A stretch of DNA of 10,463 bases from Betaproteobacteria bacterium. GTDB lineage: Bacteria; Pseudomonadota; Gammaproteobacteria; Burkholderiales; Burkholderiaceae_D. Numbering within the stretch: the first letter of the stretch is position 1; the number at the start of each line of letters is the position of its first letter. A model generated the notes under the pieces. It was not told the origin of the DNA and ran no database searches. It saw nothing but the letters and a program-made list of their open reading frames with translations. Position numbers and translations under genes: made by a program. The stretch spans positions 1 through 10,463 of the forward strand of contig JAATFN010000250.1 in assembly GCA_015655165.1 (NCBI GenBank), given 5' to 3'. Positions 1 through 10,463 of the stretch are shown here, piece by piece.

Positions 1-180
1 CCAGTCAGAGATCATTCCGGAAAAATTATTGCCGCAATGGGAGCCACTATTCCAGCGCCATACTCTGGAACACTGCCATTACAGACAATTGTGAATGAAG
101 TTAAAAGTACGGCTGAACATCTATCGCATTTACTTGGTTATACAGCGGTAGCCGAGACAGCAAAAGTCATCAATATGTAA
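1..180 (+). CDS. IclR-family transcriptional regulator, C-terminal end only (5' truncated by window)
   Basis: An open frame enters at base 1 and ends at TAA 178-180, giving 59 residues. It begins PVRDHSGKIIAAMGATIPAP and continues with a helix containing TIVNEVKSTAEHLSHLLGY. This matches the end of the IclR effector-binding domain: the typical 'PV.D..G.v.aAl.vs.P' strand followed by a last helix of the type '..l...l...a..is..lG'. IclR proteins are roughly 250-270 residues, with an N-terminal winged helix that binds DNA and a C-terminal domain that senses small aromatic or organic acids. They often control catabolic operons next to them. The gene runs the same way as the downstream enzymes and ends only 12 bases before the next start, so it is probably co-transcribed and may control the cluster. 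The DNA-binding half lies outside the window. The family call rests on one short domain fragment. Confidence 0.72.
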   Translation, partial: PVRDHSGKIIAAMGATIPAPYSGTLPLQTIVNEVKSTAEHLSHLLGYTAVAETAKVINM

Positions 181-192
181 TGGGAAACAACA

Positions 193-996
193 ATGATTGA
201 TTTACGAGGAAGGGTTGCTGTTGTCACAGGCGGTTCTTCAGGAATTGGGTTGGCATGTGTCGAGCTGTTGTTGCAAGAAAATGCAGCGGTTGCATTTTGT
301 GGCCGCAATGTATCGCGCCTGCAGCAAGCAGAGCAAGATTTACGTACGCGTTACCCGGATGCGAAATTATTCGCAGCCCCATGTGATGTGCTGGTAAAAG
401 AGCAGGTTGCTGCTTTTGCACAAGCCGTTGAAGAACGTTTAGGCGCGATCTCGATTTTGGTCAACAATGCTGGCCAAGGCAGAGTGTCGACATTTTCTGA
501 TACAACAGATGAGGCATGGGAAGAAGAGCTGCATTTGAAATTCTTCTCGGTGATTAATCCCGTGCGTGCTTTTTTGCCACAACTGAAAAAAATGCGTGCG
601 TTACAGGATGATGCTGCCATTGTCTGTGTCAATTCCTTACTTGCCTTACAACCTGAACCACATATGGTCGCTACTTCAGCAGCACGTGCGGGAGTACAAA
701 ATCTGGTGCGCTCACTGGCAACTGAATTCAGTACGTTTGGAATTCGTGTCAACGCGATCTTGATTGGGCTGGTGGAGTCGGGTCAATGGCGTCGCCGATT
801 CAACGAACGTGATAACAAAGCATTGAGTTGGGAACAATGGGCTGGTGCACTGGCACAAAAAAAACATATTCAACTAGGCCGTTTAGGCCATCCGCAAGAA
901 GCAGCACGTGCAATTGTCTTTCTTGCGACCCCACTTTCTTCATATACAACAGGTAGTCACATCGATGTTTCAGGAGGACTTTCACGCCATGTCTAA
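193..996 (+). CDS. Short-chain dehydrogenase/reductase (SDR)-like protein with degenerate catalytic residues
   Basis: This 267-residue protein has the classical SDR Rossmann fold. The cofactor motif TGGSSGIG is at 12-19. G37-R38-N39 after the second strand suggests NADP(H) preference, D65 is the adenine-contact Asp, and NNAG is at 91-94. Length and layout fit classical SDRs (about 250 residues). The catalytic tetrad Asn-Ser-Tyr-Lys is largely gone: the Ser is kept (S148), but the Tyr position (+13) is T161, the Lys position (+4 more) is R165, and the Asn position appears to be K116. The usual YxxxK is therefore TSAAR. From memory, close relatives in other Proteobacteria share this change, which would mean a stable subfamily rather than decay. 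The start ATG has only a weak GGGA ahead of it (184-187). The stop overlaps the next gene by 8 bases, so the two are probably translationally coupled. The reaction is unknown; an ordinary alcohol dehydrogenase mechanism looks unlikely. Confidence 0.88.
   Translation: MIDLRGRVAVVTGGSSGIGLACVELLLQENAAVAFCGRNVSRLQQAEQDLRTRYPDAKLFAAPCDVLVKEQVAAFAQAVEERLGAISILVNNAGQGRVSTFSDTTDEAWEEELHLKFFSVINPVRAFLPQLKKMRALQDDAAIVCVNSLLALQPEPHMVATSAARAGVQNLVRSLATEFSTFGIRVNAILIGLVESGQWRRRFNERDNKALSWEQWAGALAQKKHIQLGRLGHPQEAARAIVFLATPLSSYTTGSHIDVSGGLSRHV
972..977 (+). promoter_or_regulatory. Shine-Dalgarno site setting the ThDP-enzyme start
   Basis: AGGAGG lies 11 bases before the ATG at 989, inside the end of the SDR-like gene. 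It selects 989 over the in-frame upstream ATGs at 908 and 965, which have no comparable site and would add residues that do not resemble the family. Confidence 0.75.
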
Positions 997-2689
997 CAAT
1001 AATAATCAGGTCACAGTTGGTTGCGCTATTGCAGCTTTTCTCGAACAATGTAATGTCAAAGCAGCTTTTGGTGTCATTTCAATTCACAACATGCCTATTC
1101 TTGATGCGTTCGGTGAACGTGGAAAAATCCGTTTTATTCCAGCGCGTGGAGAAGCAGGTGGTACTAATATGGCAGACTCGTATGCACGCACGACAGGCAG
1201 TCTTGGCGTTTGTTTGACGAGCACAGGAACTGCAGCAGGGAACGCTGCTGGCGCAATGGTTGAAGCGCTGACAGCCGGTACGCCGTTATTGCATTTGACA
1301 GGCCAGATTGAGACACCTTATCTGGATCAAAGTCTTGCCTATATCCATGAGGCTCCAGATCAGTTATCGATGTTAAAAGCAGTATCCAAAGCGGCATTTC
1401 GTGTACGCAGTATCGATACGGCAATTAGCACTATCAAGCTGGCAGTGCAAACGGCATTAACACCACCCATGGGGCCTGTGAGTGTCGAGATTCCTATCGA
1501 TATCCAATCTGCATTGATTGCCATGCCGTCGGACTTACGTCCTTTGGAGATTCCTTACCAGGCGCCTTCAAACCATGCCCTGGATGAACTTGCTGCCCGT
1601 CTTGTCAAAGCCAAGCGTCCTTTATTATGGTTGGGTGGTGGTGCACGCCATGCTACAAAACAAGTCCAACGCTTGCTCGACCTTGGTTTTGGTGTGGTCA
1701 CCAGTACGCAAGGGCGCGGTATTGTGGCAGAAGATGATCCACGTTCTTTGGGTGCATTTAATTTACATAAGCCGGTTGAAAATTTTTATCAGACATGTGA
1801 TGCGGTCGTTGTCGTTGGTTCCCGTTTGCGTGGTAATGAAACACTGAAATACCAGTTGAAGCTGCCTCAGCCATTGTATCGTATCGATGCGGACCCTTCA
1901 GCAGAGGGTCGTTGCTATACCAGCAATTATTTTTTGTGTAGTGATGCAGCATTGGCGTTAGATGGTCTGGCCGACCGTCTGGCTACACTCAAGGTCGATC
2001 CTGCGTTTATCGGCGACTTGCAAAAAGCCCGTCAAGACTCCGAGGTGGGTCTGGTAGATGGATTGGGGCCATATAATCTTTTGGTTCAAAAAATTCAACA
2101 GGCTGCCGGTCGTCATTTTAACTGGGTACGAGATGTGACTGTTTCGAACAGTACATGGGGTAATCGTTACCTGCGTATTTTTGATTCGCGTGCCGGTGTA
2201 CATGCGTTAGGCGGTGGTATCGGTCAAGGTCTGGCAATGGGTATCGGGGCTGCAATCGGTTCTGCTGCAACTGCCTCTGGTAAAAAGACATTCACCTTGG
2301 CAGGCGACGGTGGCTTCATTTTAAATCTGGGTGAACTGGCTACTGCAGTACAAGAGCATGCAAACATGATCATTGTATTGATGAATGACAAAGGCTATGG
2401 CGTCATCAAAAATATTCAGGATGCCCAATATGGCGGTCGTCGCCATTATGTCGATTTGCATACACCGGATTATGCACAATTATCCAAGTCGTTGAGTTTG
2501 CGTCATCAACGTATCAGCAATCTGGATGATGTCGAATCGGGCTTGGCAACTGCCATGTCGGAGTCCGGCCCTTTCTTGCTGGAAATCGATATGTTGTCCA
2601 TTGGTAGCTTCAAGACGGCTTTTGCGGGTCCTCCAGTGAAAGTGGATGCACAACAAGGCAAAGAAACATTGTCTGTAGTGATGGAATAA
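989..2689 (+). CDS. Thiamine-diphosphate-dependent enzyme (acetolactate synthase/benzoylformate decarboxylase superfamily)
   Basis: With the start at 989 the protein has 566 residues, the normal length for this superfamily. Three domains are visible. The N-terminal PYR domain (about 8-175) contains the cofactor-activating glutamate E55 in RGEAGGTNMADSYAR, followed by the typical 'STGTAAGN' and 'GTPLLHLTGQ' segments. The central domain (about 195-330) includes PLLWLGGGA and VVVVGSRL. The C-terminal PP domain carries the Mg/ThDP motif, GDG at 439-441 with N466 in VLMNDKGYG. The histidine often preceding the catalytic Glu in acetolactate synthases is a glycine here (G54). Such enzymes decarboxylate or ligate 2-oxo acids, and the sequence alone does not say which. 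Neighbours are an SDR-like protein (8-base overlap) and an aspartate dehydrogenase (12-base gap), followed by an aldehyde dehydrogenase. A 2-oxo acid decarboxylase making an aldehyde for that ALDH is a reasonable inference. Cytoplasmic; no signal peptide seen. Confidence 0.9.
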   Translation: MSNNNNQVTVGCAIAAFLEQCNVKAAFGVISIHNMPILDAFGERGKIRFIPARGEAGGTNMADSYARTTGSLGVCLTSTGTAAGNAAGAMVEALTAGTPLLHLTGQIETPYLDQSLAYIHEAPDQLSMLKAVSKAAFRVRSIDTAISTIKLAVQTALTPPMGPVSVEIPIDIQSALIAMPSDLRPLEIPYQAPSNHALDELAARLVKAKRPLLWLGGGARHATKQVQRLLDLGFGVVTSTQGRGIVAEDDPRSLGAFNLHKPVENFYQTCDAVVVVGSRLRGNETLKYQLKLPQPLYRIDADPSAEGRCYTSNYFLCSDAALALDGLADRLATLKVDPAFIGDLQKARQDSEVGLVDGLGPYNLLVQKIQQAAGRHFNWVRDVTVSNSTWGNRYLRIFDSRAGVHALGGGIGQGLAMGIGAAIGSAATASGKKTFTLAGDGGFILNLGELATAVQEHANMIIVLMNDKGYGVIKNIQDAQYGGRRHYVDLHTPDYAQLSKSLSLRHQRISNLDDVESGLATAMSESGPFLLEIDMLSIGSFKTAFAGPPVKVDAQQGKETLSVVME

Positions 2690-2701
2690 GGAGGGCTTGC
2701 C

Positions 2702-3505
2702 ATGTTGCATATATCAATGATCGGCTGTGGTGCAATTGGTTCGGGCGTGATGGGGTTACTGAAAAATGATCCCGAAGTACATTTCGATATGGTGATTGTA
2801 CCGGATACGTATATCGATAATACACGCAAGATTGTGGCTGAACTCGCCCCATCTGCACGTGTTGTCACGCACTTGGAGGGTCAGGACAAGCCGGATCTGT
2901 TAATCGAATGTGCAGGTCATCAGGCAATTGAGCAACATATTATTCCTGCCTTAAAACGGGGAATTCCTTGCATGGTTGTGTCGATTGGGGCGCTATCGGA
3001 ATTAGGCTTGATTGAAAAGCTCGAAGACGCTGCCCGTGAAGGCAAAACACAGGTTGAATTGTTGTCAGGTGCCATCGGCGCTATTGATGCATTGTCTGCG
3101 GCAAAAATCGGTGGTCTGGATTCTGTGGTCTATACCGGCAGAAAACCGCCATTGGCATGGAAAGATACTCCGGCAGATGGATTGTTTGATTTGCAGAATC
3201 TGACAACAGAAACCGTTATTTTTGAAGGAACAGCGCGTGAAGCGGCACGTCTGTATCCCAAGAATGCCAATGTGGCCGCAACAGTGTCGTTAGCCGGCCT
3301 GGGACTTGACCATACGAAAGTGCGCCTGTATGCAGATCCTGCTGTTCAAGAAAACGTCCATCACATTGAAGTGACAGGGGCGTTCGGCGGTTTCGAGCTG
3401 ACCATGCGTGGCAAACCGTTAGCATCGAATCCAAAAACATCCGCATTGACAGTGTTTAGTGTTGTACGCGCGTTAGGCAATCGTGCCCATGCTTTATCGA
3501 TATAA
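2702..3505 (+). CDS. Aspartate dehydrogenase-family protein (NadX-like)
   Basis: The protein has 267 residues, as in known L-aspartate dehydrogenases. The N-terminal Rossmann domain opens with GCGAIGSGV (8-16). The C-terminal half carries family hallmarks: LLSGAIGAIDALSAAKIGGL (120-139), YTGRKPP (144-150), NANVAATVSLAGLG (188-201) leading to D203-H204 (the probable catalytic His), and HIEVTGAFGGFEL (221-233). The family oxidises L-aspartate with NAD(P)+ to iminosuccinate, which becomes oxaloacetate and ammonia or feeds NAD synthesis. It can also run as reductive amination of oxaloacetate. Here the gene sits in a catabolic cluster with no nadA or nadC, so a role in NAD synthesis is unlikely. 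A strong AAGGAGG site (2688-2694) overlaps the stop of the ThDP gene, and the spacing to ATG is 7. The protein may act on aspartate or on a related amino acid released from the pathway; the substrate is inferred from family only. Confidence 0.87.
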   Translation: MLHISMIGCGAIGSGVMGLLKNDPEVHFDMVIVPDTYIDNTRKIVAELAPSARVVTHLEGQDKPDLLIECAGHQAIEQHIIPALKRGIPCMVVSIGALSELGLIEKLEDAAREGKTQVELLSGAIGAIDALSAAKIGGLDSVVYTGRKPPLAWKDTPADGLFDLQNLTTETVIFEGTAREAARLYPKNANVAATVSLAGLGLDHTKVRLYADPAVQENVHHIEVTGAFGGFELTMRGKPLASNPKTSALTVFSVVRALGNRAHALSI

Positions 3506-3517
3506 GTGAAGAATGCA

Positions 3518-4999
3518 ATGAATCTGAACGAAACATTACCAATTTGTGTTGCCGGTCATTGGCGCCTGGGGCAGGGGGACCGTTATGCAACGCTATATCC
3601 TGCAACTGGAGAAGCCGTAGCCTATCTCAATGCAGCGAGTGTGGCTGATGTCGAAGAAGCGATTGTTGGCGCTGACAAAGCATTTCGTACCAGCGGTTGG
3701 GCACAACGCAAGCCACATGAACGTGCTGTGGTGTTATACAAAATCGCACAAATCATTCGTGAACGCACCGAAGAGTTGGCCCAGTTGCAACGTCTGGACA
3801 ATGGTAAACCGATTAGCGAAACCCGTGCACTAGTTGCCAGTGCCGCTGCAACGTTCCAGTTTTTTGCGGCAGCGTGCGAAACACTGGAAGAAAGTATTAC
3901 CCCCATGCGTGGTGACAATCTGACGATGAGTGTGTATGAACCGATGGGAGTCGTTGCCGCAATTACGCCATGGAATTCTCCGATTGCCAGCGAAGCACAG
4001 AAAATGGCACCTGCTCTGGCCGCTGGCAATGCTGTAGTTGTCAAGCCTGCTGAAGTGACACCGTTATTGGCATTGGCGCTGGCAAAAATATGTGGGGAGG
4101 CAGGCATACCCAAAGGAATCGTCAGCGTATTGCCTGGTAAAGGCTCAATCATCGGGGACGCAATTACGTTGCATCCACTGGTTAAACGTGTGTCGTTTAC
4201 CGGTGGTACAAGTACAGGCAAGCATATTGCCCATATCGCAGCGGACAAAATGATGCCGGTGTCGTTGGAGTTGGGCGGTAAATCACCGACGATGGTGTTT
4301 GAAGATGCCGATCTGGATCATGCAGTTGCCGGTGTGTTGTACGGTATTTTTAGTTCGTCTGGCGAATCGTGTATTGCCGGCTCGCGTTTATTTGTCGCAC
4401 GAGGCATCTATGAAGTATTCATGGATCGTTTGGCCGCAGGTGCTGCTGCCTTACGTGTGGGAGACCCTGCCAACGAAAATACGCAAATGGGTCCATTGAT
4501 CACCGCACGTCATCGCGAATCGATCGAATCATATGTAGCACTGGGTGTATCCGAAGGTGGCCATATTCGTACCGGCGGTGTGCGTCCGGATGGCGGAATC
4601 TACGACAAAGGCTTTTTTTACAAGCCGACGATTATTGAAGGTGTCACAAACGAACAACGTATTTGTCAGGAAGAGATTTTCGGACCTGTGCTGGTTGCAA
4701 TGCCTTTTGATAACGAAGAGGATTTGATTGCGCAGGCTAACGACAGTGTTTACGCATTAGCAGCCGGTATCTGGACACGTGACTACAAGAAGGCATGGCG
4801 TATTGGTCGTGCAGTTCAGGCAGGTAATGTCTGGATCAATACGTATAAGCAGTTTTCGATTGCGGCACCGTTTGGCGGGTGGCGTGATAGCGGACTCGGA
4901 CGTGAAAAAGGTCGTTTGGGCATTGTGCAATATATGGAACAAAAGTGTATGTACTGGGGCTTGAATGATCAACCACTGCCATGGGCAGGCCAGCTGTAA
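3518..4999 (+). CDS. NAD(P)-dependent aldehyde dehydrogenase (ALDH superfamily)
   Basis: I prefer the ATG at 3518 (493 residues). GAAG at 3508-3511 stands 6 bases before it, whereas the in-frame GTG at 3506 directly follows the previous stop and has no ribosome site. Using the 3518 start, the ALDH machinery is complete: N153 in TPWNSP, K176 in VVVKPAE, FTGGTSTGK (227-235), general-base E251 in LELGGKSP, and nucleophile C285 in SSGESCIAGSR. EEIFGPV and the C-terminal PFGGWRDSGLGREKG follow. It oxidises an aldehyde to a carboxylic acid. The overall look is of the non-acylating betaine-aldehyde/2-hydroxymuconic-semialdehyde group, though substrate cannot be assigned. Possible substrates here are the aldehyde left by the ThDP enzyme or a semialdehyde from extradiol ring cleavage. 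It lies 12 bases after the aspartate dehydrogenase stop, and a 62-base gap follows, the longest gap between genes in the cluster. Confidence 0.93.
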   Translation: MNLNETLPICVAGHWRLGQGDRYATLYPATGEAVAYLNAASVADVEEAIVGADKAFRTSGWAQRKPHERAVVLYKIAQIIRERTEELAQLQRLDNGKPISETRALVASAAATFQFFAAACETLEESITPMRGDNLTMSVYEPMGVVAAITPWNSPIASEAQKMAPALAAGNAVVVKPAEVTPLLALALAKICGEAGIPKGIVSVLPGKGSIIGDAITLHPLVKRVSFTGGTSTGKHIAHIAADKMMPVSLELGGKSPTMVFEDADLDHAVAGVLYGIFSSSGESCIAGSRLFVARGIYEVFMDRLAAGAAALRVGDPANENTQMGPLITARHRESIESYVALGVSEGGHIRTGGVRPDGGIYDKGFFYKPTIIEGVTNEQRICQEEIFGPVLVAMPFDNEEDLIAQANDSVYALAAGIWTRDYKKAWRIGRAVQAGNVWINTYKQFSIAAPFGGWRDSGLGREKGRLGIVQYMEQKCMYWGLNDQPLPWAGQL

Positions 5000-5061
5000 T
5001 CAATGCTGGATTGATGTGAATAAAATAGCAAAGGTCGACGACCGGTAGCAAGGAGAGGGTC
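4999..5061 (+). other. Gap between the two modules, with two small inverted repeats
   Basis: This gap separates the aldehyde dehydrogenase from the extradiol dioxygenase. It holds ATCAAT-GCTGG-ATTGAT (4999-5015), a 6-bp perfect stem, and GGTC-GAC-GACC (5033-5043), a 4-bp stem around a SalI-like palindrome. Neither is followed by a T run, so a Rho-independent terminator is not supported. I see no convincing -35/-10 pair: TAAAAT at 5021-5026 lacks a partner at the right distance. An operator or mRNA processing site is possible but unproven. The strong ribosome site AGGAGAGG (5051-5058) of the next gene lies at the end. Confidence 0.3.
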
Positions 5062-6027
5062 ATGGATGTATTAGGAATTGATGAGGTTACGTTTGGCGTC
5101 GAGGATATGCCTACATGTCGGCAATTCTTTCTTGATTGGGGTATGCGTTTAACAATAGACCAGAGCGATGAACTGGTATTTGAATCGTTAAATGGATGTC
5201 GCGTTGTAGTGAAACCGGCGACTGCGAAAGATTTGCCCCCGGCAATCGAATCCGGTTCAACAATTCGGGAGGTCGTTTGGGGCGTGTCTTCTGCTGCGGT
5301 GCTTGACAAGTTTGCCAGCCGCATCCAGACATTGCCTGGTTATGTCAATGATGGAAAAAGGATGGGATGCACTGATCCAAATGGTTTGGCGGTACGTTTC
5401 CAAGTGACACAAAAACACGATATCGACGTGGATTGCGCACAGATGAATACGTGGAACGAGAAAAACCGTATTAATCAGCGTAGCCCTATCTATGATCATG
5501 CTACGCCTATTGAAGTCGGACATGTCGTCTTCTTTGTTAAAGATGTCAATGCCTGCGAGGCGTTTTATCACGACAATTTTGGGTTTGAGGCATCTGACAG
5601 ATATCCGAACCGTGGTGCTTTCATGCGCTGTGCAGCACAAGGCGGGCATCACGATATCTTCTTGTTGCAACCACCTGAGCCACGTGCTGGCGTCAATCAT
5701 GTCGCGTTTACCGTGCGTGATATCCATGAAGTATTTGGTGGTGGAATGCATATGTCGCGTTTGGGATGGGAGACCCAATTAGGACCGGGACGTCATCCTG
5801 TGTCGTCGGCTTACTTCTGGTATTTCAAAAATCCTGCCGGAGGCCTGATTGAATATTATGCAGACGAAGATCAGCTTGATGGTGAATGGGAGCCACGTGA
5901 TTTTGAGCCTGGACCGACCGTATTTGCAGAATGGGCAATTGATGGTGGTCTTGATGGGACAACACGCCGTCAGAAGAATGCAGCTGCGCCATCAGGGAAA
6001 TTTCTGACAGATAAACCCAAGGCTTAG
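5062..6027 (+). CDS. Two-domain extradiol ring-cleavage dioxygenase (VOC superfamily, type I)
   Basis: The 321 residues contain two vicinal-oxygen-chelate domains. The N-terminal domain (about 4-116) has lost the metal ligand positions (E8, E70 and R112 where His, His and Glu are expected). The C-terminal domain (about 150-268) keeps the full 2-His-1-carboxylate set: H154 in GHVVFFVKD, H213 in NHVAFTVRD and E264 in GLIEYYAD. These positions are almost the same as in biphenyl-diol dioxygenase BphC (about 146, 210, 260). Probable acid-base residues H196/H197, H245 and Y254 are also present. The segment 243-264 fits the extradiol signature except for W253, where an aliphatic residue or Phe is normal. 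Such enzymes open a catechol-type ring next to the hydroxyls using Fe(II) or Mn(II) and O2. A generic glyoxalase is less likely given this residue set. The ribosome site is strong. A Rieske system and a flavin hydroxylase downstream would supply the diol. Confidence 0.82.
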   Translation: MDVLGIDEVTFGVEDMPTCRQFFLDWGMRLTIDQSDELVFESLNGCRVVVKPATAKDLPPAIESGSTIREVVWGVSSAAVLDKFASRIQTLPGYVNDGKRMGCTDPNGLAVRFQVTQKHDIDVDCAQMNTWNEKNRINQRSPIYDHATPIEVGHVVFFVKDVNACEAFYHDNFGFEASDRYPNRGAFMRCAAQGGHHDIFLLQPPEPRAGVNHVAFTVRDIHEVFGGGMHMSRLGWETQLGPGRHPVSSAYFWYFKNPAGGLIEYYADEDQLDGEWEPRDFEPGPTVFAEWAIDGGLDGTTRRQKNAAAPSGKFLTDKPKA

Positions 6028-6056
6028 TAACAAAAAACATTGCAAGGAGTAAGAAT

Positions 6057-7220
6057 ATGGCTTCACTGAAAATTGGTATAGCTGGTGCTGGTATCGCTGG
6101 ATTGACAACTGCTATTGCACTACAAAAAGCAGGTCATGATGTGGTGGTGTATGAACAGTCAAAACAGTTCTTTCGTGTTGGCGCGGATATTAATTTGACA
6201 CCAAATGCTGTACGTGCATTAGATGGACTGGGAGAGAAAATTGGTGCGGCAATCAGGAAAAGTGCTGCAAGACCAACGCATCGTATCAGTCGTACGTGGG
6301 ATACAGGCGAGGAAACATCCCGGCTCGAGATGTCCGATACGGCAGAAAAAAAATATGGTGCACCACAACTCACCATTCATCGTGCAGACTTGCTTGCGGC
6401 TTTATCCGATGCATTTCCTGCTGAGCGCGTCAAATTTGCCAAACGCTTAAAGTCCGTTGTAGAAAACGAGCAAGGCATCACGATTGATTTTGAAGATGGC
6501 ACATCAGATAAGGTGGATGTGTTAATTGGTGCAGATGGTATCCATTCGGTTGTACGTAAAGCCTTGTTTGGCGATGAAAACCCGCGTTTTACAGGTGTTG
6601 TGGCATTTCGTGCAGTGGTGCCGGCAAACCGTCTTGAAGGTGTTCCGAATCTGGGGGCATTCACAAAATGGTGGGGACCGAATCCCCAAAGCCAGATTGT
6701 GACTTTTCCGTTAAACCGCGGTGAAGATATTTTTATTTTTGCGACCATTGGTCAAGACTCATGGCATGAAGAGTCTTGGACAACACAAGGTAGCGTAGAA
6801 GAATTACGCGCATTGTATGCCGACTTCCATCCTGATGCGACAGTGTTGCTGGATGCATGTGACGATGTGTTGAAAACGGCATTGTACGAGCGGGATCCTT
6901 TGCCATTCTGGAGCAAAGGGCACATTGCATTGTTAGGTGATGCATCCCATCCGATGTTGCCGTTCATGGCACAAGGCGCCGGTATGGCCATTGAAGATGC
7001 TGTTGTTCTGGCACGCTGCCTGAATCAGACAACAGGTAAGTCAGACATTAATGCTGCATTGAAATTATATGAATCAGTGCGTTTAGACAGAGCCAGTAAA
7101 GTTCAGCTTGGTTCACGCGGCAATACCTGGTTGCGTGATGGTGGCAATGCCGACTGGGTCTATGGCTATGATTCCTGGGAAGTACCGTTAGCAACCGATG
7201 CTGATCTGGAACATGCATGA
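6057..7220 (+). CDS. FAD-dependent aromatic hydroxylase, 6-hydroxynicotinate 3-monooxygenase/salicylate hydroxylase-like
   Basis: This 387-residue class A flavoprotein monooxygenase has the dinucleotide motif GAGIAG (10-15), the DG motif GADGIHS (158-164) and the GD motif GDASHPMLPFMAQGAGMAIEDA (from 294). It also has the segments YGAPQLTIHRADL (100-112) and WVYGYD (367-372), which I recall from NicC, the 6-hydroxynicotinate 3-monooxygenase of Pseudomonas putida. The family uses NAD(P)H and O2 to hydroxylate an activated ring, often with loss of a carboxylate at the same carbon. Three NicC active-site residues, from memory His47, Tyr215 and His302, appear replaced (N46, T or F at 216-217, F303), so 6-hydroxynicotinate itself is doubtful. 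Ribosome site AAGGAGT (6044-6050) gives the start. The stop TGA overlaps the next ATG. The product is likely a diol for the extradiol enzyme encoded just upstream. Confidence 0.86.
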   Translation: MASLKIGIAGAGIAGLTTAIALQKAGHDVVVYEQSKQFFRVGADINLTPNAVRALDGLGEKIGAAIRKSAARPTHRISRTWDTGEETSRLEMSDTAEKKYGAPQLTIHRADLLAALSDAFPAERVKFAKRLKSVVENEQGITIDFEDGTSDKVDVLIGADGIHSVVRKALFGDENPRFTGVVAFRAVVPANRLEGVPNLGAFTKWWGPNPQSQIVTFPLNRGEDIFIFATIGQDSWHEESWTTQGSVEELRALYADFHPDATVLLDACDDVLKTALYERDPLPFWSKGHIALLGDASHPMLPFMAQGAGMAIEDAVVLARCLNQTTGKSDINAALKLYESVRLDRASKVQLGSRGNTWLRDGGNADWVYGYDSWEVPLATDADLEHA

Positions 7221-7543
7221 TGGCAGCCGAAGAAAAAATGTTATTGACGGTGTTATTAAAACATGACCAGTCAAAGAATCTTGAAGATATTCAGTCGCAT
7301 ATGAAGCAAGTCGGTTGGTGGAATCGTTTTCCGGTTGCCGGTACCCGTGTTGTTTCATGGACAGTTGCAATGGGATTAGGACAAATTGTCACGCTTGAGT
7401 TAGCACCATCCCTGTTGCCATTGGTGAATGTCGAGTTAGAACGTTCAGCATGGGGGATATTTCGTACTGAATGTTATCCCACATATGATTTTGTTCCTGT
7501 ACGTGAGCGTATTTGCGAACGTGTTAAAAATGGAGGTCAATAA
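7217..7543 (+). CDS. Small conserved-looking protein of unknown function, possible ferredoxin-like alpha/beta fold
   Basis: This 108-residue protein starts in a 4-base ATGA overlap with the flavoprotein stop and has no good ribosome site, so it is probably made by translational coupling. An in-frame ATG at 7238 is an alternative. The predicted order is strand (MLLTVLLKHD), helix (LEDIQSHMKQVGWWNRF), strand pair (TRVVSWTVAMGLGQIVTLEL), helix (LLPLVNVELERSAWGIF), strand (TECYPTYDFV). That resembles a dimeric alpha/beta-barrel or ferredoxin-like fold, as in small monooxygenases, muconolactone isomerases and stress-response barrels. I recognise no defined family, though similar proteins seem familiar next to Rieske oxygenase genes. 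It is rich in Trp and has aromatic residues late (YPTYDF). It could be a small enzyme acting on a ring-derived intermediate or an accessory to the oxygenase; neither is shown. No signal peptide or membrane segment. Confidence 0.8.
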   Translation: MMAAEEKMLLTVLLKHDQSKNLEDIQSHMKQVGWWNRFPVAGTRVVSWTVAMGLGQIVTLELAPSLLPLVNVELERSAWGIFRTECYPTYDFVPVRERICERVKNGGQ

Positions 7544-7764
7544 TGCAAGAAGTTTATCTTAATCCGCATCAAGCCCGTCGTCGTCAACCGACACCTTACG
7601 AAGACTTATTGGGTGATTCAATTGAACGTGCCTTTGCAAGTGGAACAGATGACCTGACAGGTCTTGTTGCCTATTTGAATCGTTGTGGTCCCAGTTGCCC
7701 GAAAAACAATGGGGTATGGACGGAAGAAATATATAAAGAAGAAATTGCTCTGTTAGCCGATTAA
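7543..7764 (+). CDS. Small protein of unknown function with recombinase-like helix-turn-helix pattern
   Basis: This 73-residue protein has its ATG sharing one base with the preceding stop (TAATG) and a strong GGAGGT site at 7532-7537, so it is certainly expressed as part of the run. The sequence is helical: NPHQARRRQPTPYEDLLGDSI at 7-27, AFASGTDDLTGLVAYLNRCG at 30-49, then WTEEIYKEEIALL at 59-71. The pattern 'L..yLN..G.....g.Wt.e....e...L' resembles the small helix-turn-helix of serine recombinases. I recall database names such as 'recombinase-like helix-turn-helix domain-containing protein' for similar short proteins beside Rieske oxygenases. It has no recombinase catalytic domain and nothing suggests a mobile element. 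A DNA-binding regulator or a small oxygenase-associated protein are both open. Two Cys (C48, C52) are present but with no metal-site pattern. Confidence 0.78.
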   Translation: MQEVYLNPHQARRRQPTPYEDLLGDSIERAFASGTDDLTGLVAYLNRCGPSCPKNNGVWTEEIYKEEIALLAD

Positions 7765-7794
7765 TGTCGATTGACGCTTTGCATATTTATTGTT

Positions 7795-7800
7795 AGGAGA
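7795..7800 (+). promoter_or_regulatory. Shine-Dalgarno site setting the Rieske oxygenase start
   Basis: AGGAGA sits 6 bases before the ATG at 7807. It argues against the in-frame TTG at 7771, which would add 12 residues (TLCIFIVRRIV region) unlike Rieske oxygenase N-termini. Confidence 0.75.
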
Positions 7801-7806
7801 ATAGTC

Positions 7807-8850
7807 ATGAGAACGATAGCCAATGATCCAGTAGATGATGTTTTGAAGGTTGGGCTAAAAGATTTGTGGTATCCGATTTGTCCGTCGGATTTTGTAGCAG
7901 AGCGTCCTGTATCCATGCGTCGCTTGGGTAAAAAATTAGTACTGTGGCGAGAGTCTTCAGGAAAACTGCACGCATTGGAAGATCATTGTCCTCACCGCGG
8001 TGCTCCTTTATCCATGGGGGTTGCCATGGGTGACCGTATTGCTTGCGGTTATCACGGTGTGCAGGTTCGTTTTGATGGTGTTGTCACCAGTGTTCCAGGT
8101 AGCCCTGGTTGCAAGCTTGAAGGATCCCGTTCGACATTGGCATTCCATGTCAAAGAAGCACACGGTGCAATCTTCCTGTATAACGCGAACGAACAAATCG
8201 ATGAGCCTCCACCTTTGGTCTTGCCACCTGAACTGGAAGATCCTGAGTATTCGAACTTCCTATGTTATACAGAATGGAAGGGCGATTACCGTTATGTGCT
8301 TGATAACGTGATGGATCCAATGCATGGCACATTCTTGCATAAGCAATCCCACTCGATGGCCGAGGGTGATAACAAAGCGACATTCAGCATTCGTGAAACC
8401 GACATCGGTTTTATCTTTGAAAAAGAAGGTCAACGTAATGTGAACTTTGACTGGAGTGAGTGGGCAGACACCGGTATGCATTGGATGCGTTTGTCAATTC
8501 CATATCCAAAATCAGGTGGCCCTGGCGGCAGCTTTTTCATTATTGGAAGTTACACACCGATTGCAGACAATATTGCTGCCGTATTCCACTGGCGTTGCCG
8601 CAAGGTCAGTGACTGGCAAAAAAATACATGGCGTTTCTTATACCGCAATCGTCTGGAAGCGCGCCATTGGGCAGTGCTGGAGCAAGATCGTGTGGTACTT
8701 GAACTGATGGAGCCCGATGCCAATAAGCGTGAAACTCTATATCAGCATGATATGGGAATCGTGCGTTTGCGCAGACACCTACGCAACTTGGCGAAAGATG
8801 AACTGAGCCGGAAAGATGAAGAGAAAAATCCATCTGAAATTGCAGCTTGA
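7807..8850 (+). CDS. Rieske non-heme iron aromatic oxygenase, alpha (catalytic) subunit
   Basis: With the start at 7807 the protein has 347 residues, typical of the single-subunit-type oxygenases such as vanillate O-demethylase VanA and phthalate dioxygenase. The Rieske [2Fe-2S] site is complete: C61-P-H63, then 16 residues, then C80-G-Y-H83. The mononuclear iron site is DNVMDPMHGTFLH (166-178), giving H173 and H178 with the bridging D170, and D294 in EQDRVV as the likely third ligand. N-terminal WYPICPSDFV is also a family hallmark. The enzyme would use O2 and electrons from a reductase for dihydroxylation, monohydroxylation or O-/N-demethylation. The matching reductase is encoded at 9326-10279, with a RidA-like gene between. 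No small beta-subunit gene is seen, in line with an alpha-only oligomer. The substrate is unknown, probably an aromatic or heteroaromatic carboxylate given the neighbours. Confidence 0.92.
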   Translation: MRTIANDPVDDVLKVGLKDLWYPICPSDFVAERPVSMRRLGKKLVLWRESSGKLHALEDHCPHRGAPLSMGVAMGDRIACGYHGVQVRFDGVVTSVPGSPGCKLEGSRSTLAFHVKEAHGAIFLYNANEQIDEPPPLVLPPELEDPEYSNFLCYTEWKGDYRYVLDNVMDPMHGTFLHKQSHSMAEGDNKATFSIRETDIGFIFEKEGQRNVNFDWSEWADTGMHWMRLSIPYPKSGGPGGSFFIIGSYTPIADNIAAVFHWRCRKVSDWQKNTWRFLYRNRLEARHWAVLEQDRVVLELMEPDANKRETLYQHDMGIVRLRRHLRNLAKDELSRKDEEKNPSEIAA

Positions 8851-8873
8851 TAAATTAAGTGGATGAAAAAAAC

Positions 8874-9287
8874 ATGCCCACAGTACACCATGTTCTAACA
8901 CCAAAAGTACCAGAAAATGAAACTTCTACTTGGTCAAATTGTCTTGTGATTGGTAAAGACATCGTCATGTCTGGCATGACTGCACATCTTGCATCAAAAG
9001 AGAAATCATTAGGTATGTATGAACAGGCACACATTGTGCTTAATAAAATACTGAATTTGGTAGAAGCAGCAGGTGGCCATATCGGGAATATCTACAAATT
9101 GGTGATTTATGTCAAAGATATTTCTTATAAGGATGATGTTAGCTGTGCCAGGCGTGATTTTTTTAAGTCCATTTATCCATGCTCGACACTGGTTGAAGTC
9201 AGTAATTTTGTGTTCGAGGATATTGTGATTGAGATTGATGCATTCGCCAGACTGGATGTGGATATTCGTGATGCGATAAATAGTTGA
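8874..9287 (+). CDS. RidA/YjgF-family protein lacking the canonical active-site arginine
   Basis: The preferred start is ATG 8874 (137 residues), 10 bases after AAGTGGA. A GTG at 8859 would add five residues (VDEKN) and has no ribosome site. The fold signature is clear: VIGKDIVMSGMTA (25-37), the helix IVLNKILNLVEAAGGHIGNIYKLVIYVKD (54-82), and the C-terminal PCSTLVEV..FVFEDIVIEIDAFA (102-125). In RidA the motif is P-x-R-S/T, where the Arg binds the substrate carboxylate and is needed for 2-aminoacrylate hydrolysis. Here S104 stands in its place, while the later Glu (E120) is kept. This is a feature of the non-RidA Rid subgroups, often encoded in catabolic operons. Relatives include 2-aminomuconate deaminases, so action on an enamine or imine from a nitrogen-bearing ring is possible but unproven. 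The stretch looks more AT-rich than the genes before it. Confidence 0.85.
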   Translation: MPTVHHVLTPKVPENETSTWSNCLVIGKDIVMSGMTAHLASKEKSLGMYEQAHIVLNKILNLVEAAGGHIGNIYKLVIYVKDISYKDDVSCARRDFFKSIYPCSTLVEVSNFVFEDIVIEIDAFARLDVDIRDAINS

Positions 9288-9325
9288 TTCAGCATCGGAG
9301 TGATTAAATTTCAACTGGAATATTT

Positions 9326-10279
9326 ATGACAAGTAGCAATCTTTTATCTGTTCAGGTAACTGCAATGCGTCTTGAAGCCAAGGGCATTGTCAGTATTGAA
9401 TTAGGAAAGCCTGATCAGGACAACTTACCTTCTTTCGAGGCAGGTTCTCATATTGATTTGCATCTGGCTAACGGGTTAGTTCGCAGTTATTCTTTGCTGA
9501 GCTCACCGCAAAATCAGACGCATTATATCGTTGCTGTATTAAACGATCGTGACAGTTCAGGTGGTTCGCGTTTCATCCATGAAAAATTACGTGTTGGCGA
9601 CCTGATTGCTATTTCGGCACCGCGTAATAATTTCTCAGTAGATTTTTCTGCTGAACATTCAGTATTGATTGCTGGTGGTATTGGCGTCACGCCAATCATG
9701 TGCATGTTGAATGATTTACGTGCAAAAAAGAAGCAGGTTGAGGTACTTTATTGTGCACGTTCGAGAAGTGAAGCAGCATTTGTTGACATGCTTTCTCAAT
9801 ATCCGGAAGTGCAGTTCCATTTTGATGATGAACAATCTGCACCACCTGATTTAAAGTCTTATCTTGATAAAAGACCCAAAGATAGCCATGTTTATTGTTG
9901 TGGTCCGACAAAGATGCTGGATGCATTCGAAAATTTGTGTGAAGCACTTCACATGCCTAATGTGCATGTCGAACACTTTGCCGCAGCTGAGGATATGCAG
10001 TCGGTGCAAAACGATGAATATGTCGTCACGCTATCACAGAGTAATAAAACAATTAGTGTTCCTGCAGGGAAATCATTACTGGATGCCATATTAGATGCTG
10101 GTGTCAATATTGATCACAGTTGCAGGGAAGGTATTTGCGGTGCATGCGAAACCAAGGTACTGGAAGGTATTCCGGATCATCGCGATAACGTATTGACCAA
10201 AAGTGAACGTGCAGCAAATAAAACCATCATGGTGTGCGTTTCAGGTTGCATTTGCAAGAAACTGATACTAGACGTTTAA
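9326..10279 (+). CDS. VanB/phthalate dioxygenase reductase-type ferredoxin reductase (FMN, [2Fe-2S])
   Basis: The 317 residues are arranged as in the VanB/phthalate dioxygenase reductase family: an N-terminal flavin domain with RSYSL (53-57), an NAD(P)H domain with GGIGVTP (117-123) and CCGP (191-194), and a C-terminal plant-type ferredoxin domain with cluster ligands C266, C271, C274 (SCREGICGAC) and C304. The order flavin-NAD-ferredoxin distinguishes it from reductases with an N-terminal ferredoxin. It passes electrons from NAD(P)H via FMN to a [2Fe-2S] cluster and on to a Rieske oxygenase, almost certainly the one at 7807-8850. The start has only a weak TGGA (9316-9319) ahead, at 6 bases from ATG, so expression may be modest or depend on upstream translation. 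The tail has extra cysteines (C308, C310) after the ligand set, in a place where VanB proteins usually have variable residues. It is the last gene seen in the run. Confidence 0.93.
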   Translation: MTSSNLLSVQVTAMRLEAKGIVSIELGKPDQDNLPSFEAGSHIDLHLANGLVRSYSLLSSPQNQTHYIVAVLNDRDSSGGSRFIHEKLRVGDLIAISAPRNNFSVDFSAEHSVLIAGGIGVTPIMCMLNDLRAKKKQVEVLYCARSRSEAAFVDMLSQYPEVQFHFDDEQSAPPDLKSYLDKRPKDSHVYCCGPTKMLDAFENLCEALHMPNVHVEHFAAAEDMQSVQNDEYVVTLSQSNKTISVPAGKSLLDAILDAGVNIDHSCREGICGACETKVLEGIPDHRDNVLTKSERAANKTIMVCVSGCICKKLILDV

Positions 10280-10294
10280 AGCGTAATCAATAAG

Positions 10295-10328
10295 CAAAGA
10301 TAGTTCTCTGGCAAGCAGGTTTTTTGCC
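10295..10328 (+). repeat. Direct repeat copy 1, hairpin-forming
   Basis: This copy contains CAAAGA-T-AGTTCTCTGGCAAG followed by CAGG and a T run ending TTTTTGCC. GGCAAGCA can pair with TTTTTGCC around a GGT loop, with one mismatch and one G-T wobble. It is a near-copy of 10429-10463, with centres 135 bases apart. It starts 16 bases after the reductase stop. Confidence 0.65.
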
Positions 10329-10428
10329 CGAGCGGGGATGGTTGCGCCTTCAAATCGTCAATGTGGATGATTGCATTTTATTTTTCTGAGTGGCTTATGC
10401 ACTAAATATTTAATTGGGAAATAAATAA

Positions 10429-10463
10429 CAAAGAACAGTTCTCTGGCAAGAAGACTTTTTGCC
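10429..10463 (+). repeat. Direct repeat copy 2, hairpin-forming, cut by window end
   Basis: This copy contains CAAAGA-AC-AGTTCTCTGGCAAG then AAGAC and a T run ending TTTTTGCC at the last base. GGCAAGAA pairs with TTTTTGCC around a GAC loop: eight pairs, one a G-T wobble, with no mismatch. Differences from copy 1 lie mostly in the inner stem and loop, so the hairpin survives the sequence changes. The repeat may extend beyond the window. Confidence 0.65.

Follow-up and report, generated by a model that had tools for sequence, protein, structure and literature searches.

The locus described here raises a simple question: which compound do its genes degrade? The DNA is contig JAATFN010000250.1 (C42) of the draft genome GCA_015655165.1 of Betaproteobacteria bacterium, and by "the window" we mean this whole contig of 10,463 bases, so both window ends are assembly ends. 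It carries 11 complete genes, all on one strand, as judged from the list of open reading frames and from Pfam and NCBIfam scans, and these include genes for a Rieske oxygenase, its reductase and a type I extradiol ring-cleavage dioxygenase of the VOC family. We conclude that they belong to a real, conserved and apparently unassigned catabolic cluster, for which kynurenate (4-hydroxyquinoline-2-carboxylate) is the best-fitting substrate, with another fused N-heteroaromatic acid second. On our proposal from sequence, to which we would give an even chance, a whole kynurenate catabolic cluster is present and the window holds its right-hand portion. The first-pass annotation had suggested an operon for degradation of an aromatic or N-heteroaromatic compound by the logic of Rieske and extradiol enzymes, and this is supported, a probably N-heteroaromatic compound included. 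It had also known of no such pathway, and in the open-licence literature of PubMed Central (PMC) we too met with no paper that assigns the cluster or the genes for kynurenate breakdown, although one published in a subscription journal could have escaped this search.

Conservation and extent of the cluster

The genes are grouped in the same way in many other genomes. For comparison we used 80 named loci, the best 80 of 216 relatives from a VOC scan of GTDB representatives, annotated with proteins from the window and from Klebsiella, Acinetobacter and Caballeronia. We treat as the core seven genes, for a short-chain dehydrogenase/reductase (SDR) with an atypical catalytic site (SDRb), a thiamine diphosphate (ThDP) enzyme, an L-aspartate dehydrogenase family protein (AspDH), an aldehyde dehydrogenase (ALDH), the extradiol VOC, the Rieske oxygenase and the reductase. 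All seven are on the same strand in 74 of the 80 loci, and the run SDRb-ThDP-AspDH-ALDH-VOC is unbroken in 73. Contig ends truncate four of the six exceptional loci (L027, L054, L068 and L090) but do not by themselves account for the other two, L025 and L045. The grouping is far beyond chance, and the earlier concern that the left and right halves of the window might never be neighbours elsewhere can be set aside.

In the 74 core-complete loci there are also genes for an IclR-family regulator (74), a second, canonical SDR (SDRa, 73), a small protein that we call HTH62 (73), a cupin (72) and an alpha/beta hydrolase (71). Three other window genes are much less frequent: a FAD monooxygenase (FMO) is present in 35 (33 of them on the cluster strand), and a 108-residue protein (S108) and a RidA-like protein in 17 each. 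On these counts the three are outside the core. In Herbaspirillum, Massilia, Variovorax and relatives the order is SDRa-cupin-hydrolase-IclR-SDRb-ThDP-AspDH-ALDH-VOC-[FMO]-[S108]-HTH62-Rieske-[RidA-like]-reductase, with the optional genes in brackets. In Cupriavidus and Ralstonia it is permuted, with HTH62-Rieske leftmost and, in most, a major facilitator superfamily (MFS) transporter gene after the reductase.

The operon of the window looks complete, merely divided by the assembly between C42 and a second contig of 3,157 bases (C108) in the same draft genome, which is of 2.62 Mb in 453 contigs and 63.7% complete. Twelve collinear genes had been counted in the first-pass annotation; 11 of these stand as complete genes on the same strand, and the twelfth is a fragment (bases 1-186) of the IclR-family regulator gene, with the 3' end of the gene at 1..180 (+) and its 5' part on C108. 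By tblastn, window bases 1-186 match residues 217-276 of the IclR protein of Herbaspirillum L014 (53%), and C108 bases 626-3 match residues 1-208 (78%), the gene stopping at the C108 edge. C108 also has the cupin (81%), SDRa (79%) and alpha/beta hydrolase (54%) genes. These three belong to the cluster, and the absence of a hydrolase noted for the window does not extend to the cluster. The intergenic gaps across the window genes are of -8 to 62 bases, an arrangement as in a single operon.

Strong matches to the VOC were found in 9 of 398 genomes in a phylum-wide draw, own genome included, and in the remaining eight (8/8) the gene lies together with those for SDRb, ThDP enzyme, AspDH, ALDH and Rieske oxygenase; two of these eight genomes (L084, L088) are already among the 80, and in a third (L145) no cupin or hydrolase is seen. 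There were strong matches in 24 of 250 genomes of the Comamonas testosteroni family, and of the 249 genomes sampled from the Cupriavidus necator family 129 have the cluster VOC. In the family draw 11 other genomes are of the same genus, taken to be Herbaspirillum; nine of them gave a strong match, a tenth only a weak one and the eleventh nothing. The gene set is also present in annotated plasmid records of K. pneumoniae, A. baumannii, Caballeronia and Novosphingobium. In the K. pneumoniae and A. baumannii records and those of Caballeronia NK8 and SBC2, there is a Rieske ferredoxin gene and a separate FAD reductase gene, and the Novosphingobium record has the FAD reductase with no annotated ferredoxin. 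Caballeronia sp. M1242 has a reductase of the window type, S108 and the RidA-like protein, and nearby on the opposite strand a flavoprotein gene 61.5% like that of the window. The "FAD-dependent oxidoreductase" of the Klebsiella, Acinetobacter and Caballeronia records was considered as a counterpart of the FMO and rejected, as it does not match the flavoprotein of the window; that of Caballeronia scans as a ferredoxin-reductase-type enzyme. Caballeronia NK8 has, besides the set on pNK83, a second and interleaved cluster gene set on pNK84 (L162). A megablast of the Rieske gene of L014 against phage records gave no match.

A proposed fit to kynurenate catabolism

Kynurenic acid is a nitrogen-containing product of tryptophan that is neuroactive and immunoactive. 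In work on Pseudomonas in the 1960s, Hayaishi and co-workers reportedly found that kynurenate is converted to a 7,8-dihydrodiol and then to 7,8-dihydroxykynurenate, which undergoes 8,8a extradiol cleavage. The side-chain double bond is said to be reduced next, the 2-oxo acid decarboxylated and the aldehyde oxidised to the acid, after which the dihydroxypicolinate is reportedly opened to glutamate, alanine and acetate, by ring-opening steps that were not resolved. The route was described from extracts, and to our knowledge the genes have not been assigned.

According to a passage in a 2024 review, which cites Horibata 1961 and gives no genes there, certain pseudomonads form glutamate, alanine and organic acids from kynurenate (PMC11354673), and another report includes the statement that P. 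aeruginosa strain CHA secretes kynurenic acid (PMC4938989). Going by protein family, our cluster has for each step of the Hayaishi route as far as the propionate side chain a candidate enzyme of suitable type, with SDRb the least certain. What the sequences show is the gene set, its conservation, the active-site residues and the linkage; we infer the substrate, the regiochemistry and the order of the reactions, and steps 4 and 7 in their entirety. Residue conservation below is from tblastn segments, with "conserved" meaning at least 98% of sequences and numbering as in the translations used.

In step 1 the Rieske oxygenase alpha subunit, of VanA_C type (7807..8850, +; PF00355 and PF19112), would act as a ring 7,8-dihydroxylase, hydroxylating the benzo ring at C7-C8 with the PDR-type reductase (9326..10279, +), perhaps together with the HTH62 protein. 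The oxygenase has the CxH...CxxH and DxxHxxxxH motifs, with Asp171 in 82/82, His174 in 81/82 and His179 in 82/82 sequences (numbered from base 7804), His174 being replaced by Tyr in the one exception. The reductase has a flavin/NADH domain and a C-terminal 2Fe-2S (Fer2) domain, and its matches to the PaaE, GbcB and BenC models are all below cut-off. A ring-dihydroxylating oxygenase with its electron transport, which in other clusters may be by ferredoxin and ferredoxin reductase, is thus present at the level of class. HTH62, of 73 residues (7543..7764, +), matches PF20552 (E 1e-27), a family named "recombinase-like helix-turn-helix". Its gene is directly 5' of the Rieske gene in all 76 loci that have both, and for this reason we propose that it is probably a partner of the Rieske oxygenase and not a DNA-binding protein.

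SDRa (on C108) would dehydrogenate the diol to 7,8-dihydroxykynurenate in step 2. Its Ser144, Tyr157 and Lys161 are conserved (n=79), and in NCBIfam it matches general SDR models best, though below their cut-offs; its catalytic residues and the own-genome copy on C108 give a dihydrodiol dehydrogenase by class. The VOC dioxygenase (5062..6027, +; PF00903) would then cleave between C8 and C8a (step 3) to give a 4,6-dihydroxypicolinate bearing a 2-oxobutenoate side chain. The metal ligands His154, His213 and Glu264 and the second-sphere His197, His245 and Tyr254 are conserved (n=86), in what we take to be the pattern of homoprotocatechuate 2,3-dioxygenase. The nearest solved structure is 3b59, an unassigned glyoxalase/dioxygenase, followed by homoprotocatechuate 2,3-dioxygenases, which are the best specifically named.

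For step 4, reduction of the side-chain double bond, the candidate is SDRb (193..996, +), which matches the equivalog model NF005468 at 445.6 bits (cut-off 266). It has the Gly-rich nucleotide motif and retains Ser148, but where an SDR would have Tyr and Lys it has Thr161 and Arg165 in 81/81 sequences. Its closest solved relative is 3lf1, "Short Chain Oxidoreductase Q9HYA2" of P. aeruginosa (E 9e-117). The atypical centre of Q9HYA2 has reportedly been the subject of a paper, and we know of no role for the protein.

In steps 5 and 6 the ThDP enzyme (989..2689, +) would decarboxylate the 2-oxo acid side chain and ALDH (3506..4999, +; PF00171, 559 bits) would oxidise the resulting aldehyde, giving a propionate side chain. 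The ThDP enzyme has three thiamine pyrophosphate Pfam domains and a match to NF005470 of 901.6 bits (cut-off 495), and its match to the 5-guanidino-2-oxopentanoate decarboxylase model is at 245.7 bits, below the cut-off of 500. Glu56 is present in at least 98% of ThDP enzyme sequences (n=81; numbered from base 986), and Glu255 and Cys289 of ALDH are conserved (n=86). A 2-oxo acid decarboxylase and an aldehyde dehydrogenase are thus present by class, both in the core, and such a pair beside an extradiol enzyme is what the Hayaishi route requires.

Step 7 would be the opening of the dihydroxypyridine ring at C4-C5 by the cupin and the alpha/beta hydrolase encoded on C108, leaving the nitrogen, C2-C4 and the carboxyl group as an iminosuccinate/aspartate unit. 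Ser97, Asp217 and His244 of the hydrolase are conserved (n=77); for its Caballeronia copy the nearest solved structure is HsaD and the nearest NCBIfam models are PcaD-type enol-lactonases, below cut-off. The structural model of the cupin is weak, with a mean confidence (pLDDT) of 67.9 and generic structural matches, and a profile search gave the quercetinase QueD at E 1e-5. It is because splitting at C4-C5 would leave an iminosuccinate unit that AspDH (2702..3505, +) fits the route. In step 8 this enzyme may turn over that unit, its proposed substrate being 2-iminosuccinate or L-aspartate, with the remainder going to an acid of the 2-oxoglutarate/glutamate type. AspDH matches NF009827 at 481.4 bits (cut-off 226), two of its three solved relatives are named aspartate dehydrogenase, and His220 is conserved (n=83). 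The IclR protein would be the regulator, and FMO, S108 and the RidA-like protein would be accessory, perhaps broadening the substrate range.

The linked molybdenum hydroxylase

The presence of nitrogen in an intermediate had been argued from RidA relatives and amino acid dehydrogenases. It is better supported by AspDH than by the RidA-like protein, AspDH being in the core, and also by a linked molybdenum (Mo) hydroxylase. On pNK84 of Caballeronia NK8 the genes for ferredoxin, HTH62, Rieske oxygenase, ThDP enzyme and VOC are followed on the same strand by those for a three-subunit Mo hydroxylase and a CoxG-like (SRPBCC) protein. For the large subunit, identity is 60-66% with the proteins encoded close to the cluster in Cupriavidus, Variovorax and Ramlibacter, as against 28% with a CO dehydrogenase, and the orthologue is beside cluster genes in four genera. 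Among solved structures the Cupriavidus enzyme is nearest to 4-hydroxybenzoyl-CoA reductase and then to quinoline 2-oxidoreductase, and it is below the cut-off of all NCBIfam models listed.

A three-subunit Mo hydroxylase is in the fetched flank of 13 of the 80 loci, counting any subunit that matches at orthologue level. Plain counts of this kind are weak because there are 2-24 PF20256 matches per genome in the 24 genomes searched, and the evidence is raised by the orthology test only. In the 249 Cupriavidus-family genomes, at 64% identity or more, the orthologue is in 15; all 15 have the cluster VOC, compared with 114 of the 234 others (Fisher p 3e-5, with no correction for kinship). The orthologue is within 12 kb of the VOC gene in 14 of the 15 and on another contig in the fifteenth; for paralogues (40-43%) only one of 12 is within 20 kb. 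The independent weight of the link lies in the four genera and the differing positions. The linkage is independent support for an N-heterocycle, and it would suit a feeder step such as quinaldate to kynurenate.

The same linkage and the optional NicC-like flavoprotein (FMO) suggest variable feeder reactions, and would also be in keeping with another fused-ring N-heteroaromatic acid (quinaldate, xanthurenate or another quinoline or indole acid) degraded by the same logic, with kynurenate neither the natural substrate nor an intermediate. AspDH in the core agrees with this, as does the presence in some Cupriavidus loci of a two-subunit Mo hydroxylase gene next to one for a NicC-like flavoprotein. 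However the side-chain trimming set (ThDP enzyme and ALDH) and a ring that yields aspartate suit kynurenate most closely, and in the 20.9 kb covered for Klebsiella and for Acinetobacter the annotation includes no Mo hydroxylase. We consider such an acid unlikely, its chance being well short of even, and continue with kynurenate as the preferred substrate. Homarine was our first idea, and a literature search on it yielded nothing related.

The two-subunit enzyme takes the place of the three-subunit one in some Cupriavidus, at four of the 80 loci and at the plasmid locus L011. In L080 and L091 the genes for a two-subunit Mo hydroxylase lie to the right of the cluster, accompanied by TctC and IclR genes and by one for a NicC-like flavoprotein that shares 67-69% identity with that of the window. 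The genome of L083, a Variovorax metagenome-assembled genome, also has a compact paralogous set (L115), cupin-VOC-HTH62-Rieske, after an aerobic CO dehydrogenase gene set. We looked at it as evidence for an N-heteroaromatic substrate and rejected it, as the adjoining enzyme passes the TIGR02416 cut-off and is an aerobic CO dehydrogenase.

The accessory genes and other features of the window

The FMO (6057..7220, +) has as its best solved relative 6-hydroxynicotinate 3-monooxygenase (NicC; E 6.4e-85). It had been seen as a part of the pathway, and from the counts above it is better regarded as an optional addition. The RidA-like protein (8859..9287, +; PF01042) has 2ig8 (PA3499) as best solved relative (E 4.5e-35). 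It has Ser109 in 20/20 family members at the site of the imine-deaminase arginine, presumably that of Arg105 in RidA, the equivalence being judged by eye from the PCST/PAST motif. It therefore lacks the catalytic arginine of an imine deaminase, and given also its presence in only 17 core-complete loci the argument for nitrogen from this protein is not supported.

These two proteins, both in the window, speak for the leading idea in the first-pass annotation, of a monocyclic amino-aromatic or pyridine acid degraded by a route like that of 2-aminomuconate. With the arginine lacking and both genes optional, we now find this idea improbable. Nor is there any hydratase, aldolase, oxalocrotonate decarboxylase, NicX, NicD, NicE or NicF among the genes of the window or of annotated relatives, although no dedicated search was made. 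The same holds for 2-aminomuconate deaminase, with no candidate among those cluster genes except the arginine-less RidA-like protein, again with no dedicated search.

S108 (7217..7543, +) has no Pfam or NCBIfam match. Its AlphaFold2 model (pLDDT 87.2) predicts a ferredoxin-like alpha/beta fold, and a fold search with the model gave nothing at E <= 0.001. The S108 and RidA-like genes are a near-obligate pair around HTH62-Rieske, not adjacent to each other: they occur together in their 17 core-complete loci and neither occurs alone, and the one exception among all 80 loci is the truncated L068, where the RidA-like gene is found but S108 is not. Of the core-complete loci, 18 have FMO and no S108, and two have S108 and no FMO.

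Downstream of the operon there are two near-identical stretches, at 10303-10329 and about 10436-10463, each by eye a short hairpin with a T-run. The second is interrupted by the contig end, and the pattern was matched once in the genome. The G+C content of the window (1-10463) is 46.6%, which is low for Herbaspirillum, where it is typically above 60%.

Weighing the substrate assignment

Several observations weigh against kynurenate as substrate. The substrate is named in no record of the cluster, and linkage of tryptophan 2,3-dioxygenase (TDO) to the cluster was not seen. In the sample of the C. testosteroni family, 20 of the 24 genomes with a strong VOC match have TDO, compared with 163 of all 250 (a one-sided Fisher test gives p 0.037), and TDO is on a contig other than that of VOC in 18/18 places listed. 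The role of SDRb as an enone reductase is a guess from the missing Tyr and Lys, and in the Novosphingobium stretch there is only a single SDR. Neither a cupin nor a hydrolase is seen within the cluster at the C. testosteroni loci L042 and L053 or at L145. FMO, S108 and the RidA-like protein are not accounted for by the kynurenate route. A Mo hydroxylase is near only the 13 loci referred to above, and 13 of the 15 Cupriavidus-family carriers are 91-100% alike, which makes for few independent events.

The last such point is that FdeC and IfcB, the closest relatives of the VOC with an established use, act on O-heterocycles, and this brings in a pathway for a flavonoid or chromone-type compound, related to the fde (naringenin) or ifc (isoflavone) clusters. 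The window VOC is distantly related (35%) to an FdeC-like protein, and cupins and hydrolases are found in both. FdeC and IfcB are described as glyoxalase-type proteins linked to A-ring cleavage following 8-hydroxylation (PMC11069340), which we count in favour of this alternative; IfcB is 65.8% identical to FdeC. However the cluster carrier H. aquaticum (L014) has a separate fde-type operon elsewhere in its genome, with genes for LysR, MetA_deg, S9 hydrolase, VOC, Rieske ferredoxin, FMO, MFS, PF04199 cyclase, cupin, fumarylacetoacetate (FAA) hydrolase and epimerase. We take it to be of fde type from its gene content. AspDH, ThDP enzyme, ALDH and Rieske alpha subunit are absent from its 10 scanned genes and VOC. 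Identity of our cluster with fde was rejected, given this separate locus, with VOC 35% and FMO 28% identical, and the IclR and not LysR regulator of the window cluster. We consider an O-heterocycle pathway of this kind improbable, and kynurenate remains our preferred substrate.

Taken as a whole, the proposal is that the cluster comprises the genes of bacterial kynurenate catabolism, including the Thr/Arg SDR as side-chain reductase, the PF20552 protein as Rieske partner and a Mo hydroxylase for quinaldate to kynurenate, and that among its carriers are Klebsiella, Acinetobacter and, probably, Pseudomonas. It would thereby give genes to kynurenate 7,8-hydroxylase, the dihydrodiol dehydrogenase and 7,8-dihydroxykynurenate 8,8a-dioxygenase. 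We put this joint claim at somewhat less than an even chance. If it is true there would be genes for a 60-year-old pathway of a neuroactive and immunoactive tryptophan metabolite, and its removal by bacteria could be predicted from genomes. It would also provide a context for the solved structures PA3499 and Q9HYA2 and a catabolic use for L-aspartate dehydrogenase. Even with a different substrate, an apparently unassigned cluster whose VOC is so widespread in the Cupriavidus family is a gap worth closing.

Comparison with known systems

The PA3498-PA3511 region of P. aeruginosa PAO1 is linked to the cluster by PA3499 (2ig8) and Q9HYA2 (3lf1), the latter presumably of this region, which among solved structures come closest to the RidA-like protein and to SDRb respectively. 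PA3505 there is reportedly an L-aspartate dehydrogenase. The S108 relatives are named from Pseudomonas. As a difference, PA3501-PA3504 are said in a passage of one paper to be unique to PAO1 (PMC5069748).

With the nicotinate (nic) pathway the cluster shares the optional flavoprotein that is nearest to NicC among solved structures. It differs in having no genes of nicX, nicD, nicF or nicE type in the window or annotated relatives, and in that ring opening here would be by an extradiol VOC.

The fde pathway of Herbaspirillum seropedicae and ifc of Variovorax have in common with our proposal the VOC-type cleavage of the 7,8-diol of a bicyclic oxo-heterocycle, and the cupin and hydrolase. They differ in that the first hydroxylation is by a flavoprotein, and in the set of four core enzymes lacking from the scanned fde-type locus.

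For the Hayaishi kynurenate route, the difference is that the three accessory proteins have no counterpart there. The likeness is in the enzyme classes, in the odd decarboxylation and aldehyde oxidation after extradiol cleavage, and in products of the glutamate and alanine kind that the cluster would be expected to give.

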